Source: Sphingobacterium deserti | GTDB lineage: Bacteria > Bacteroidota > Bacteroidia > Sphingobacteriales > Sphingobacteriaceae | Assembly (NCBI RefSeq): GCF_000757725.1 | Contig: NZ_JJMU01000026.1 | Location: forward strand, 1 to 64,000 | DNA length: 64,000 bases | Direction: 5' to 3' | Shown here: one piece after another, positions 43,982 through 47,938 of the stretch | Numbering within the stretch: position 1 is the first letter of the stretch | Layout: each line of letters opens with the position of its first letter | Notes under the pieces: generated by a model | What the model was told of the DNA's origin: nothing | Seen by the model: the letters and a program-made list of their open reading frames with translations, nothing else | The model's database searches: none | Translations under genes and position numbers: made by a program

Positions 43982-44725
43982 CTATATCACTTGGATTTGT
44001 TTCGCAAATTCCGTCAATTTTGGATGTTTTGGATCTAGGTCTGTGACAAGATAGGTGACATCCCTTAATGGCGCTACGCGCATCTTTTGGTTGGAGTTTA
44101 GCTTTTCTGTGATGCTTAAGATTGCAAGATTTTTCGAACACTTTATCATCGCTCGTTTAATTTGAACGACTTCCCAGTCCGAATCGGTGATACCCTCATC
44201 GAGTGATAAACTGTTTGTGCCCAATAGGCACAGATCTACGCGTAAATCGGAAAGCTCGTTTATAACCTGCGCTCCAGTAACAATATTTGTATTTCTGGAC
44301 AGTTTTCCGCCAAGCAAGATCACGTCAATGTTCTCTTTTTCCGCAAGTTCAAGCGCAACCAGCGGGCTGATGGTGAAAAATGTGCATTGAATTTCATTAG
44401 GGACAAGTCGCGCAAGTTCAATCATTGTTGTACCACCGCCAACGAGTACCGTCATGCCATTTTGTATAAGAGAAATGGCTTTCTTCGCAATGTCTTTCTT
44501 GGATTCCTTGGCGTAGACATTTCCTTCTTGAAAAGGGAACTGAAAAGACTTTGATAATGCCCCGCCATACACCTTCAAAACTTGTCCATTTTCGGCTAGC
44601 TCATTTAAATCTCGCCGTATGGTGTCTTCTGATACATTGAGCTGTACACTCAAATCTGACGATAAAACTTTGTTATGTAAGTTTATTTGGTGAATGATAT
44701 AGGCTTGTCTTTCTTCCTTCAACAT
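43982..44725 (-). CDS. DeoR/GlpR-family transcription regulator
   Basis: A 247-residue repressor-type protein. The N-terminal winged helix (about 1-55) has LKEERQAYIIHQINLHNKV and VSEDTIRRDLNELAENG, then VYGGAL; the C-terminal sensor domain (about 75-240) has MTVLVGGGTTMIELARLV, GGKLSRNT and LGTNSLSLDEGITDSDWE, as in regulators that bind phosphorylated sugars. Its targets are not evident; it stands convergent to the glycan operon with abutting stops, and upstream it is 37 bp after the repeat-protein gene. Confidence 0.88.
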   Translation of the reverse strand: MLKEERQAYIIHQINLHNKVLSSDLSVQLNVSEDTIRRDLNELAENGQVLKVYGGALSKSFQFPFQEGNVYAKESKKDIAKKAISLIQNGMTVLVGGGTTMIELARLVPNEIQCTFFTISPLVALELAEKENIDVILLGGKLSRNTNIVTGAQVINELSDLRVDLCLLGTNSLSLDEGITDSDWEVVQIKRAMIKCSKNLAILSITEKLNSNQKMRVAPLRDVTYLVTDLDPKHPKLTEFAKQIQVI

Positions 44726-44761: not shown

Positions 44762-45931
44762 TTACTCAGACGGATTTTCGTCCGTAGGCTTATTCTTTGT
44801 TACGCCCGCTTTAAAGCGCGGTTTGAATCCGGTAGGCTTGCTGGTCGGCGCTTCTGCTGGTTTATCTTCTTGCGCGGGATCTTCTGCTTTCGGGGTCTCC
44901 GGTTGTTCATCAGCAGGCTTTGTTACGCCCGCTTTAAAGCGCGGTTTGAACCCTGCGGGTTTACTGACCGGCGTTTCTGTTTGCTTATCTTCTTGCGCGG
45001 GATCTTCGGCTTTCGGGGTTTCCGGTTGCTCATCAGCAGGCTTTGTTACGCCCGCTTTGAAGCGCGGTTTGAACCCTGCGGGTTTACTGACCGGCGTTTC
45101 TGTTTGCTTATCCTCTTGCTTCGGTTCTTCCGGCGATGATGTTTCCGGTTGCTCATCAGCAGGCTTTGTTACGCCCGCTTTAAAGCGCGGTTTGAACCCG
45201 GTAGGCTTGCTGGCCGGTGCTTCTGTTGGTTTATCTTCTTGCGCGGGATCTTCGGCTTTCGGGGTTTCCGGTTGCTCATCAGCAGGCTTTGTTACGCCCG
45301 CTTTGAAGCGCGGTTTGAACCCTGCGGGTTTACTGACCGGCGTTTCTGTTGGTTTATCTTCTTGCGCGGGATCTTCGGCTTTCGGGGTTTCGAGCTGCTC
45401 ATCAGCAGGCTTCGTTATGCCTGCTTTAAAGCGCGGTTTGAATCCTGCCGGCTTACTAGCCTGTTCAGCTATAGGATCTTCTTGATTCGTCGATCCGGTT
45501 GTCGTAGGCTTCTTGTTTTCGGTTTCCAACGTTACACCTGCTTTAAAACGAGATTTAAAAGCCGGCTTTTGAATTGCAGCAGAATGAACTTCTTTGTCTG
45601 CGTCGACTGTATTTTCTTTATTTTCCTCTGTTGTTGATTTTTTGAAACGTGATTTAAAGCCCGTCGGATTGTAGATTGGTTGTGCAGCGTTAGCTTCCGA
45701 CTTCTCTACAAGTGGTGCGGCCTGTTCGGACGGCGTAGTTTGATTTTCCTTATCCAGCAAAAGGTATTTTTTTCGCAAGTTATTGAACCAAAACTTTTTT
45801 GTATGGTCGAAGCTTTTTTCACCCATTTGAGCATAGTGAAGCCTAAACTCTTCATACAAAGAGCGCTCGTTTGCCTGCAGAAGCGAAATATCTATTCTTT
45901 TTTTCGCAAAAAAATCTTCAAATGTCATCAT
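44762..45931 (-). CDS. Low-complexity tandem-repeat protein with conserved N terminus
   Basis: A 389-residue protein. Residues 1-65 (MMTFEDFFAKKRIDISLL, then GEKSFDHTKKFWFNNLRKKY) form a compact, non-repetitive domain. The rest is mostly disordered and made of a 41-residue unit, K-P-A/T-G-F-K-P-R-F-K-A-G-V-T plus an acidic Pro/Glu-rich spacer: five full copies and a partial sixth in near-identical form, preceded by two diverged copies (GFKSRFKKS, AFKSRFKAG). The function is unknown; I recall similar F-K-P-R-F repeats in sphingobacterial proteins, but this is memory only. The frame extends to a TTG at 45937, yet the ATG at 45931 is preferred. No signal peptide or membrane segment, so it is probably cytoplasmic. 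Confidence 0.75.
   Translation of the reverse strand: MMTFEDFFAKKRIDISLLQANERSLYEEFRLHYAQMGEKSFDHTKKFWFNNLRKKYLLLDKENQTTPSEQAAPLVEKSEANAAQPIYNPTGFKSRFKKSTTEENKENTVDADKEVHSAAIQKPAFKSRFKAGVTLETENKKPTTTGSTNQEDPIAEQASKPAGFKPRFKAGITKPADEQLETPKAEDPAQEDKPTETPVSKPAGFKPRFKAGVTKPADEQPETPKAEDPAQEDKPTEAPASKPTGFKPRFKAGVTKPADEQPETSSPEEPKQEDKQTETPVSKPAGFKPRFKAGVTKPADEQPETPKAEDPAQEDKQTETPVSKPAGFKPRFKAGVTKPADEQPETPKAEDPAQEDKPAEAPTSKPTGFKPRFKAGVTKNKPTDENPSE
44797..45454 (-). repeat. 123-bp tandem repeat, five full copies plus partial
   Basis: The core GCGGTTTGAA recurs at 44818, 44941, 45064, 45187, 45310 and 45433, exactly every 123 bp. Five full units span 44840-45454 and a partial unit lies at 44797-44839. 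The unit is 41 codons, so copy-number change keeps the frame. Copies are almost identical in DNA, apart from the one holding ETSSPEEPKQ, pointing to recent expansion or conversion. Confidence 0.92.
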
Positions 45932-46262
45932 GTCCAAGTGCTAAATTTAATAAATAATACCAAGCATGTTTAAAATTATCCAATAATTTTTCTGAGCAAC
46001 CGTATTGACCATTCATTCGTTAATTTTTCGACGTAGCTACGTATCATATCACGATCCAGAGATGACCTTAAACCCGTAATAATTTTGAGTAACTATTCGC
46101 AAAAACACGTCTTCGATCGGAGGTGTAGGATAATGGATTGGTAAGATCCGTGAGACGCTACTCGCGTAGCACAGCAAAGGGTATATCGAAAATACGATAG
46201 GCGCAATTTCTTAAAAATTAGGAAGGAAGCTTTGTTTTGCTTCCTTCCTATCAATGACTACT
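45932..46262. other. Intergenic stretch between repeat-protein gene and yebC
   Basis: About 330 bases with no supported gene. It holds the yebC terminator at 46219-46250 and a short hairpin GCTAC-TCGC-GTAGC at 46157-46170. Nothing else was recognised. Confidence 0.5.
46219..46250 (-). terminator. Rho-independent terminator of yebC
   Basis: A perfect 12-bp stem (TAGGAAGGAAGC with GCTTCCTTCCTA) around an 8-base loop, followed on the minus strand by ATTTTTAAG. It lies 12 bp past the yebC stop codon. Confidence 0.85.
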
Positions 46263-46988
46263 TTAGTCCATATTATGATAAACGGCCTGTACATCATCAT
46301 CTTCCTCAATCTTATCAATCATCTTGAGTACTTCAGCGGCTTGTTCTTCGTTTGTCGAGGTGTGGGAGAGGGCTATACGTTCAAGTTTTGCTGATTTCAC
46401 CTCAATTCCTTTTTCTTCCAGCAAGCTTTGCATATTTCCGAAATCTTCAAATGATGTTTGTACTACAACTACATCATTACCCTCTTCGTCTGCTTCCACA
46501 TAGAGTTCCTCAAGACCGCCATCGATCAATTCCAGTTCCAGCTCTTCTACATCCAGTTCTTCGGAGGCATCAAAGCGAAATATTGATTTACGTTGGAAAA
46601 TAAAATCCAGCGAGCCTGTTTTGCCCAATGATCCGCCTGCTTTTGTGAAGTAGCTTCTGATGTTTGCTACCGTACGGTTTGTATTATCTGTCGCCGTTTC
46701 AATTAGAACAGGCACACCGTGCGGGCCATATCCTTCATACACATATTCTTCATAACCCTTCGCATCTTTTTCTGAGGCTCGCTTTATTGCGGCTTCGACA
46801 CGGTCTTTAGGCATGTTCACCGCTTTCGCATTTTGTACAGCTGTGCGTAGGCGCGAATTGTTTTCCGGGTGAGGGCCGCCTTCTTTAACCGCCATTGCGA
46901 TTTCTTTCCCTAAACGTGTGAACTGAACGGCCATTTTGGCCCAGCGTTTAAATTTTCTTTCTTTTCTGAATTCAAATGCTCTACCCAT
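46263..46988 (-). CDS. YebC/PmpR family protein
   Basis: A 241-residue protein of the TACO1/YebC family. The N-terminal MGRAFEFRKERKFKRWAKMA differs from the usual 'AGHSKW' type; PKDRVEAAIKRA, YEGYGPHGVPVLIE and NRTVANIRSYFTKAGGSLG are conserved. YebC proteins bind DNA as regulators and newer work links them to translation of proline-rich sequences. It begins 2 bp after the threonine dehydrogenase gene. It is interesting that the neighbouring gene makes a very proline-rich protein, but no link is shown. Confidence 0.9.
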   Translation of the reverse strand: MGRAFEFRKERKFKRWAKMAVQFTRLGKEIAMAVKEGGPHPENNSRLRTAVQNAKAVNMPKDRVEAAIKRASEKDAKGYEEYVYEGYGPHGVPVLIETATDNTNRTVANIRSYFTKAGGSLGKTGSLDFIFQRKSIFRFDASEELDVEELELELIDGGLEELYVEADEEGNDVVVVQTSFEDFGNMQSLLEEKGIEVKSAKLERIALSHTSTNEEQAAEVLKMIDKIEEDDDVQAVYHNMD

Positions 46989-46990
46989 TT

Positions 46991-47938
46991 TTATACGTGT
47001 GTTTTGAGGTTTTCAATCATGTTTTTTGTCATGCCTTCCAAATCATAGGTTGGTTGCCAACCCCAATCGTTTCGTGCGTAAGAATCATCTATACTTGCTG
47101 GCCACGAGTTGGCAATAGCTTGGCGGGGATCGTCGTCGACATAAGACATCTCAAAATTAGGAAGAATTTTTTTAATTTCCTCTGCGATTTGCGCCGGCGT
47201 GAATGATATGCCCGCAATGTTGTAGCTCGAGCGGATAGTGATTTTTTCTGCTGGAGCATCCATAAGCTCTATTGTTCCGCGTACTGCATCTTCCATATAA
47301 AGCATAGGAAGTTCCGTTTCAGCGGATAGAAAGGATGCATATTTCCCATGTTTCAGTGCTTCGAAAAAGATGTGTACAGCATAGTCTGTCGTTCCCCCAC
47401 CAGGTGAAGTTTTCCAAGAGATGATTCCCGGATATCGGATACTGCGGATATCAAGTCCATATTTATTGTGGTAGTACTCGCAAAGGCGCTCGCCGGCTAG
47501 TTTACTGATCCCATAAATGCTGGACGGATCCATGATGCAATACTGCCCAGTATTTACCTTTGGCGAGTGCGGGCCAAAAACGGCAATAGAACTTGGCCAA
47601 AATATTTTTTTGATGCCTAAGTCTAGCGCTAAATCAAGCACATTCAAGAGGCCATTCATATTCAGATCCCATGCTTTTTGCGGGTATTGTTCGCCTGTGG
47701 CTGATAGCATCGCCGCGAGCAGATAGATCTGTGTTGGTTCATATTTTATCAATAAGGATCGCAGCGCGTCCTTATCCAATACATTAATCGACTCGAAAAT
47801 CAGCCCTTCTTTCAGGTCGTCCGGCTTTCGGATGTCTGAAGTGATAACGTTTTCATCACCAAATTTTTGGCGGAGGGCCATTGCCAGTTCTGATCCTATC
47901 TGGCCATTTGCTCCAATAATTATTATACGCTCTTTCAT
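46991..47938 (-). CDS. L-threonine 3-dehydrogenase, NAD-epimerase (SDR) type
   Basis: A 315-residue extended SDR enzyme. GANGQIGSEL (9-18) binds NAD; the SSIAVFG and YGISKLAGE segments hold the catalytic Ser and the Y-x3-K pair; RYPGIISWKTSPGGGTTDYAV and the late SYNIAGISFTPAQIAEEI are typical of the UDP-galactose-epimerase-like threonine dehydrogenases known from Flavobacterium and Cupriavidus, which oxidise threonine to 2-amino-3-ketobutyrate. No kbl partner gene is beside it. Its stop is 2 bp before yebC, so the two probably share a transcript. Confidence 0.86.
   Translation of the reverse strand: MKERIIIIGANGQIGSELAMALRQKFGDENVITSDIRKPDDLKEGLIFESINVLDKDALRSLLIKYEPTQIYLLAAMLSATGEQYPQKAWDLNMNGLLNVLDLALDLGIKKIFWPSSIAVFGPHSPKVNTGQYCIMDPSSIYGISKLAGERLCEYYHNKYGLDIRSIRYPGIISWKTSPGGGTTDYAVHIFFEALKHGKYASFLSAETELPMLYMEDAVRGTIELMDAPAEKITIRSSYNIAGISFTPAQIAEEIKKILPNFEMSYVDDDPRQAIANSWPASIDDSYARNDWGWQPTYDLEGMTKNMIENLKTHV

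Follow-up and report, generated by a model that had tools for sequence, protein, structure and literature searches.

Disordered scaffold and hub proteins are a general class with repeated short linear motifs, and a disordered chain with local peaks of predicted confidence is the usual picture for binding motifs. Basic repeat tails are known in nucleoid and RNA-chaperone proteins; those of the histone H1-like and HupB-type bacterial nucleoid proteins are rich in lysine and proline. Effector domains of the MARCKS type are basic-aromatic clusters that bind acidic lipid. The 389-aa protein of Sphingobacterium deserti described here resembles the multivalent hubs in its small folded head, disordered tail, strongly selected repeated motif and variable spacers, but its head and motif match no described family. 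With the H1-like and HupB-type tails it shares Lys/Pro-rich repeats that vary in number. It differs from them in that its spacers are acidic, its tail is about neutral and the core of its repeat keeps a hydrophobic residue after Pro-x; with a mean tail charge of -0.8 in the family and spacers of ~-5 per 30 aa, the strongly positive tail of such proteins is lacking. The aromatic residues typical of MARCKS are kept in the cores of the Sphingobacteriaceae, but are often I, M, L or V in other lineages. The gene directly upstream is yebC, and YebC/TACO1 is described (PMC12234827, PMC11990639) as a factor that binds RNA and assists ribosomes in passing stretches of proline. It has no detected sequence relation to the 389-aa protein. 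YebC-dependent stalls feature a PP pair; the 389-aa protein contains none, and was therefore rejected as a polyproline substrate of YebC.

The features of the locus are itemized in Table 1, numbered within the window, that is the whole 64-kb stretch of S. deserti DNA that was analysed. The gene starts with the ATG at 45931 and stops at 44762-44764. An alternative TTG start is possible at 45937, 6 bp upstream of the ATG, and in most relatives the second Met is the start. The plus-strand ORF of 220 aa at 44823-45485 is a mere mirror frame of the array.

Table 1. Positions of the features of the S. deserti locus in the window
Feature	Position	Strand	Basis
Whole gene, 389 aa + stop	44762..45931	-	ORF call, translation; orthologues in 178/251 family genomes
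Head domain, ~60 aa, predicted all-helical	45752..45931	-	Alignments A1-A3, AF2
Diverged core 1, FKSRFK	45641..45658	-	Motif positions
Diverged core 2, FKSRFK	45542..45559	-	Motif positions
Five full 41-codon units	44828..45442	-	TRF, unit comparison, genome pattern search
Cores of the five full units	45425-45442, 45302-45319, 45179-45196, 45056-45073, 44933-44950	-	
Terminal core FKPRFKAGVTK and C-terminal NKPTDENPSE	44765..44827 (core at 44810-44827)	-	
yebC (TACO1/YebC family), directly upstream	46263..46988	-	NCBIfam/Pfam
Terminator-like hairpin, 12-bp stem and U run, just past yebC	46212..46250	-	Fold of intergenic strand

Starting from the head, eight cores follow along the chain, beginning at residues 91, 124, 163, 204, 245, 286, 327 and 368 (0-based, of 389) with core-to-core spacings of 33, 39, 41, 41, 41, 41 and 41 residues. 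The core peptide is GFKPRFKAGVTK. Six FKPRFKAG[VI]T cores, those of the five full units and the terminal one, lie in exact 123-bp register, and TRF independently finds a 123-bp array without indels at 44795-45457. The ORF call, TRF and the motif positions thus bear out the coordinates and the 123-bp spacing given in an earlier note on this DNA. Its count of six copies holds for those in register; it left out the diverged pair of FKSRFK copies on the head side and gave no strand. Calling the copies almost identical was an overstatement, since DNA identity between full units is 78-94%, and each pair differs at 4-10 synonymous and 2-10 non-synonymous of its 41 codons. The evenly spaced alternation of basic cores with acidic spacers is as it had described, with net charges of ~+4 per regular core region and ~-5 per regular spacer (per 30 aa). 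The gene is single copy in the genome. A genome-wide search with the FKPRFK pattern returned seven matches, six of them in this gene and the seventh reading FKPSFK; use of the motif by other S. deserti proteins was not seen in this search, and the core is essentially private to the gene within the genome.

The head is modelled by AF2 as five short helices, with pLDDT ~78-86 over residues 1-60 and pTM 0.53, and reaches pLDDT 72-91 in the full-length model, in keeping with the compact domain that had been proposed. The invariant columns of the head alignment form the signature KK[KR]I[DN] ... F(D)xxKKFxxNxxR; residues K11, K45 and R53 are invariant and K46 nearly so. The S. deserti head matches the A1 profile with E 2.8e-36, a value that is partly by construction because the protein is included in the profile. 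Searches of Pfam, NCBIfam, PHROGs, PADLOC and PDB sequences gave no credible match to the head, and in Pfam no HU or H1 model matched it. The earlier note knew of no family for this domain, and held that a match to a known functional family would count against its reading; profile searches found none. The ribosomal protein L28 model TIGR00009 scores 12.9-16.7 bits against a curated cut-off of 48.3, and PF06984 (MRP-L47 / uL29) scores 13.3-15.7 bits, in one of 45 members, against a gathering cut-off of 27. The PADLOC anti-phage defence models did not match the S. deserti head; a stray Cas8a match (E 0.002) occurs in another family member. Foldseek found nothing above threshold among PDB structures (head and full length) or viral structures (head), which is weak evidence because the pTM is just 0.53 and the domain is small. 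A phage or plasmid origin of the gene was considered and set aside, with no tblastn match in either collection.

Using a profile built from 11 heads, the head is detected in 178 of 251 Sphingobacteriaceae genomes, almost always as one copy. In the first sample it is present in 36 of 37 Sphingobacterium genomes (S. deserti included); the single negative assembly may reflect an assembly gap, since yebC was also undetected there. Several genera of the family that lack the head are represented by otherwise complete genomes, so the protein is dispensable at the genus level. More widely the head occurs in 21 of 295 Bacteroidia genomes, and in 12 of 395 genomes of a phylum sample for which few candidates were scored per genome. 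With a broader profile of 45 sequences it is found in 145 of 241 genomes of a second Bacteroidia order, believed to be the Cytophagales (120 of 194 in an overlapping sample). Outside the Sphingobacteriaceae the head protein is often 58-90 aa long. Many relatives consist of the head alone (58-65 aa) with no motif, and the motif is therefore inessential to whatever the head does. One short ORF (L317, G987) has two matches to the head profile, either one head aligned twice or a duplicated head.

Within the Sphingobacteriaceae the tail contains 2-14 cores per protein, spaced by 28-147 residues and mostly by 38-44 (104 proteins). Among 562 core instances P is present in 548, F in 549 and G in 494; the search pattern favours the counts of P and F upward, but not that of G. 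Comparison of 334 equal-length unit pairs, each from the same gene (70 genes), gives dN 0.009 and dS 0.44 for the core (dN/dS ~0.02) against dN 0.134 and dS 0.253 for the spacer (dN/dS ~0.5), where pairs from one gene are not independent and the pattern restricts which cores are counted. In the cores, synonymous changes are frequent and the protein sequence is unaltered; purifying selection on them is strong, and it is much weaker on the spacers, whose sequence is little conserved.

The repeats are also homogenized within lineages, spacers and units resembling each other more closely inside one protein than across species. The likeness of spacers is 0.53 within a protein and 0.31 between species, and units are 86.7% identical within S. 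deserti compared with 70.4% against those of S. paludis, the nearest named relative (70% identity in the best segment, matching residues 1-386). The recent origin earlier ascribed to the copies is thus supported in the form of recent homogenization. Within lineages there is turnover of both the number of copies and the type of unit. The length variation foreseen between strains is observed between species, each represented by one genome. The earlier note would also have given way to a fixed repeat number with divergence at synonymous sites, but the number varies across the family; the S. deserti and S. paludis genes nevertheless both have six regular cores. In the sister Sphingobacterium genomes L024, L029, L040 and L041 units of 38 and 54 residues occur in varying order, indicating shuffling of unit types. 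The net charge of the tail averages about -0.8 in the Sphingobacteriaceae; in other families values run from about -3 to +47, and the motif is kept throughout. In the full-length AF2 model the tail is disordered, with small local peaks of confidence at the cores (pLDDT ~56-62).

A common motif, [KR]-P-x-[FILMV]-[KR], can be recognized across the lineages; in the S. deserti gene it takes the form G-F-K-P-R-F-K. Short tails outside the Sphingobacteriaceae commonly end in one such motif, for example KPVFKRPS, RPVFKRKT, RPIIKRKA or KPIIKPKFKR. These counts are free of inflation by repeats: there are 6 motifs in 9 tails where 0.41 are expected in shuffles, and 8 in 10 against 0.48 in a second set, in which one of the ten is a tandem-head artefact without the motif. 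The definition of the motif was drawn up after some tails had been inspected, and the second set is the sole one fetched after it had been fixed. Long arrays follow the head in several families (RPVFKK, RPVIKPK, RPRPVIKRP, KPIFKRP, KPVIRPVIKK, KPVLKK and KPIMR); in 20 long tails 158 motifs are seen where shuffles give 4.8, although the non-independence of repeats inflates this count. The fit is partial for the LKPKIPG repeats of the L271/L280 lineage (G923), and the KLPLKK/KVPLKK-type repeats of the f2 members L062 and L134 give no strict match. In L271/L280 the head is followed by many LKPKIPGASKPSSEGESKP repeats, a distinct repeat type. The distribution suggests a single ancestral C-terminal motif that was expanded separately in several lineages. 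The S. deserti protein has both the head signature and the [KR]Px[FILMV][KR] motif (at least one is asked of a member), present in its six FKPRFK cores and absent from the FKSRFK copies, which lack the proline. Judged from sequence, head and motif together are an undescribed, widespread protein family of the Bacteroidota. Literature searches for the motif strings and for Sphingobacterium repeat proteins found no publication.

The surroundings of the gene differ between lineages. In the Sphingobacteriaceae yebC, found at 70 loci, is directly upstream on the same strand in every one of them; the gaps run from -1 to 981 bp, and the order epimerase-yebC-head recurs. The gap in S. deserti is 325 bp and single copy, which rules out a repeated mobile element. 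Joint transcription of yebC and the head gene is doubtful there because the terminator-like hairpin separates them; given this and the spread of gaps, a yebC operon was dropped as a general rule. No credible Rfam element is present in the region of the gene, and the Bacteroidota promoter pattern matches at chance level in the window, with no match close to the gene. A DeoR/GlpR-type regulator (43982-44725, minus strand) starts 36 bp past the end of the gene, and the pair recurs in several Sphingobacterium loci. In the second Bacteroidia order the head lies upstream of kbl (glycine C-acetyltransferase) at seven loci, L107, L301, L302, L305, L306, L307 and L310, with gaps of 1-163 bp. These often have a divergent NAD-epimerase related to that at 46991-47938 in the window; that this gene recurs speaks for a shared ancestry of the locus. 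In f2 the head gene comes after obgE. In most other lineages yebC and obgE are not neighbours, their place being taken by kbl, an epimerase or unrelated genes. With neighbours so variable from lineage to lineage, no pathway can be assigned.

On balance we think it rather more likely than not that the gene product is a soluble, cytosolic and mostly disordered docking scaffold, motif-specific and multivalent, the valency of which is changed by repeat turnover. Each core would dock with the same specific partner site. That site might be an acidic groove on a protein or might lie in a folded RNA, rRNA being an example, and docking would agree equally well with either. Additional copies of the core would raise the avidity, or allow several partner molecules to be held at once, with the head providing a second, constant contact. 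The ancestor may have been a head with one C-terminal motif that several lineages enlarged by unequal exchange, and gene conversion would keep the units uniform. Docking specific to the motif is favoured over generic charge binding because the net charge of the tail varies and the motif stays; the earlier suggestion of RNA, DNA or a membrane as an acidic partner gains no support here, and the same values argue against generic binding to any acidic polymer. Direct binding of RNA (on the ribosome) or DNA by the head, which is basic and helical, together with the K/R/F-rich cores, in the way of the basic repeat tails of nucleoid proteins and RNA chaperones, is nonetheless possible, if rather unlikely. 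It would agree with the conserved basic residues of the head, the charge of +4 on each core, tails of +18 to +47 net charge in some relatives, and the L28 and MRP-L47 matches, weak and under curated cut-offs as they are. The upstream genes point the same way, with obgE in f2 and in the Sphingobacteriaceae the fixed yebC, which encodes a ribosome factor that binds RNA (PMC12234827). Yet many members keep the motif on tails of about zero or negative net charge, binding by charge needs less than a near-invariant proline and hydrophobic residue, and most other lineages have neither gene as a neighbour.

The remaining alternatives appear weaker. It is improbable that the cores bind the head of their own protein or of neighbouring copies. 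Head and motif do co-occur across lineages, and within the genome the motif is confined to this gene, but many heads occur without any core, and the low confidence of the cores in the full-length AF2 model, with no ordered head-core contact, is weak evidence against such pairing. Slightly less probable again is an attachment of the cores to acidic lipids of the membrane, by analogy with MARCKS. FKPRFK does form a basic-aromatic cluster, and inspection by eye shows no signal peptide or transmembrane helix, so that the inner face of the membrane might be accessible. Against this, the aromatics are lost in other lineages (RPVIKRP, KPIMR, KPVLKK), and a near-invariant proline is not known to be a feature of lipid-binding clusters. 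That the tail is a functionless product of neutral repeat expansion, or a spacer, we regard as highly improbable. The wide variation in copy number and the existence of tailless heads would allow it, but it is largely refuted by the within-gene dN/dS of the core, and the same class of motif recurs in separate lineages.

The finding is larger than the earlier note described, extending to a widespread family of head plus motif. The head is common, occurring in most sampled Sphingobacteriaceae and in more than half of the second order sampled, yet it is without a Pfam or NCBIfam model or a PDB relative, and the same predicted docking motif is present in arrays in several lineages. The lineages provide a natural series for comparing the effects of valency (0, 1 and 2 to 18 motifs), and the motif, being short and fixed, offers a direct bait in a search for the partner. 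More speculatively, and as an unlikely rather than an expected outcome, the protein may belong to an undescribed class of Bacteroidota hub whose motif binds one conserved machine (the ribosome, RNA polymerase or a degradosome-like complex, for example), and individual lineages would tune clustering or condensates through the number of motifs.
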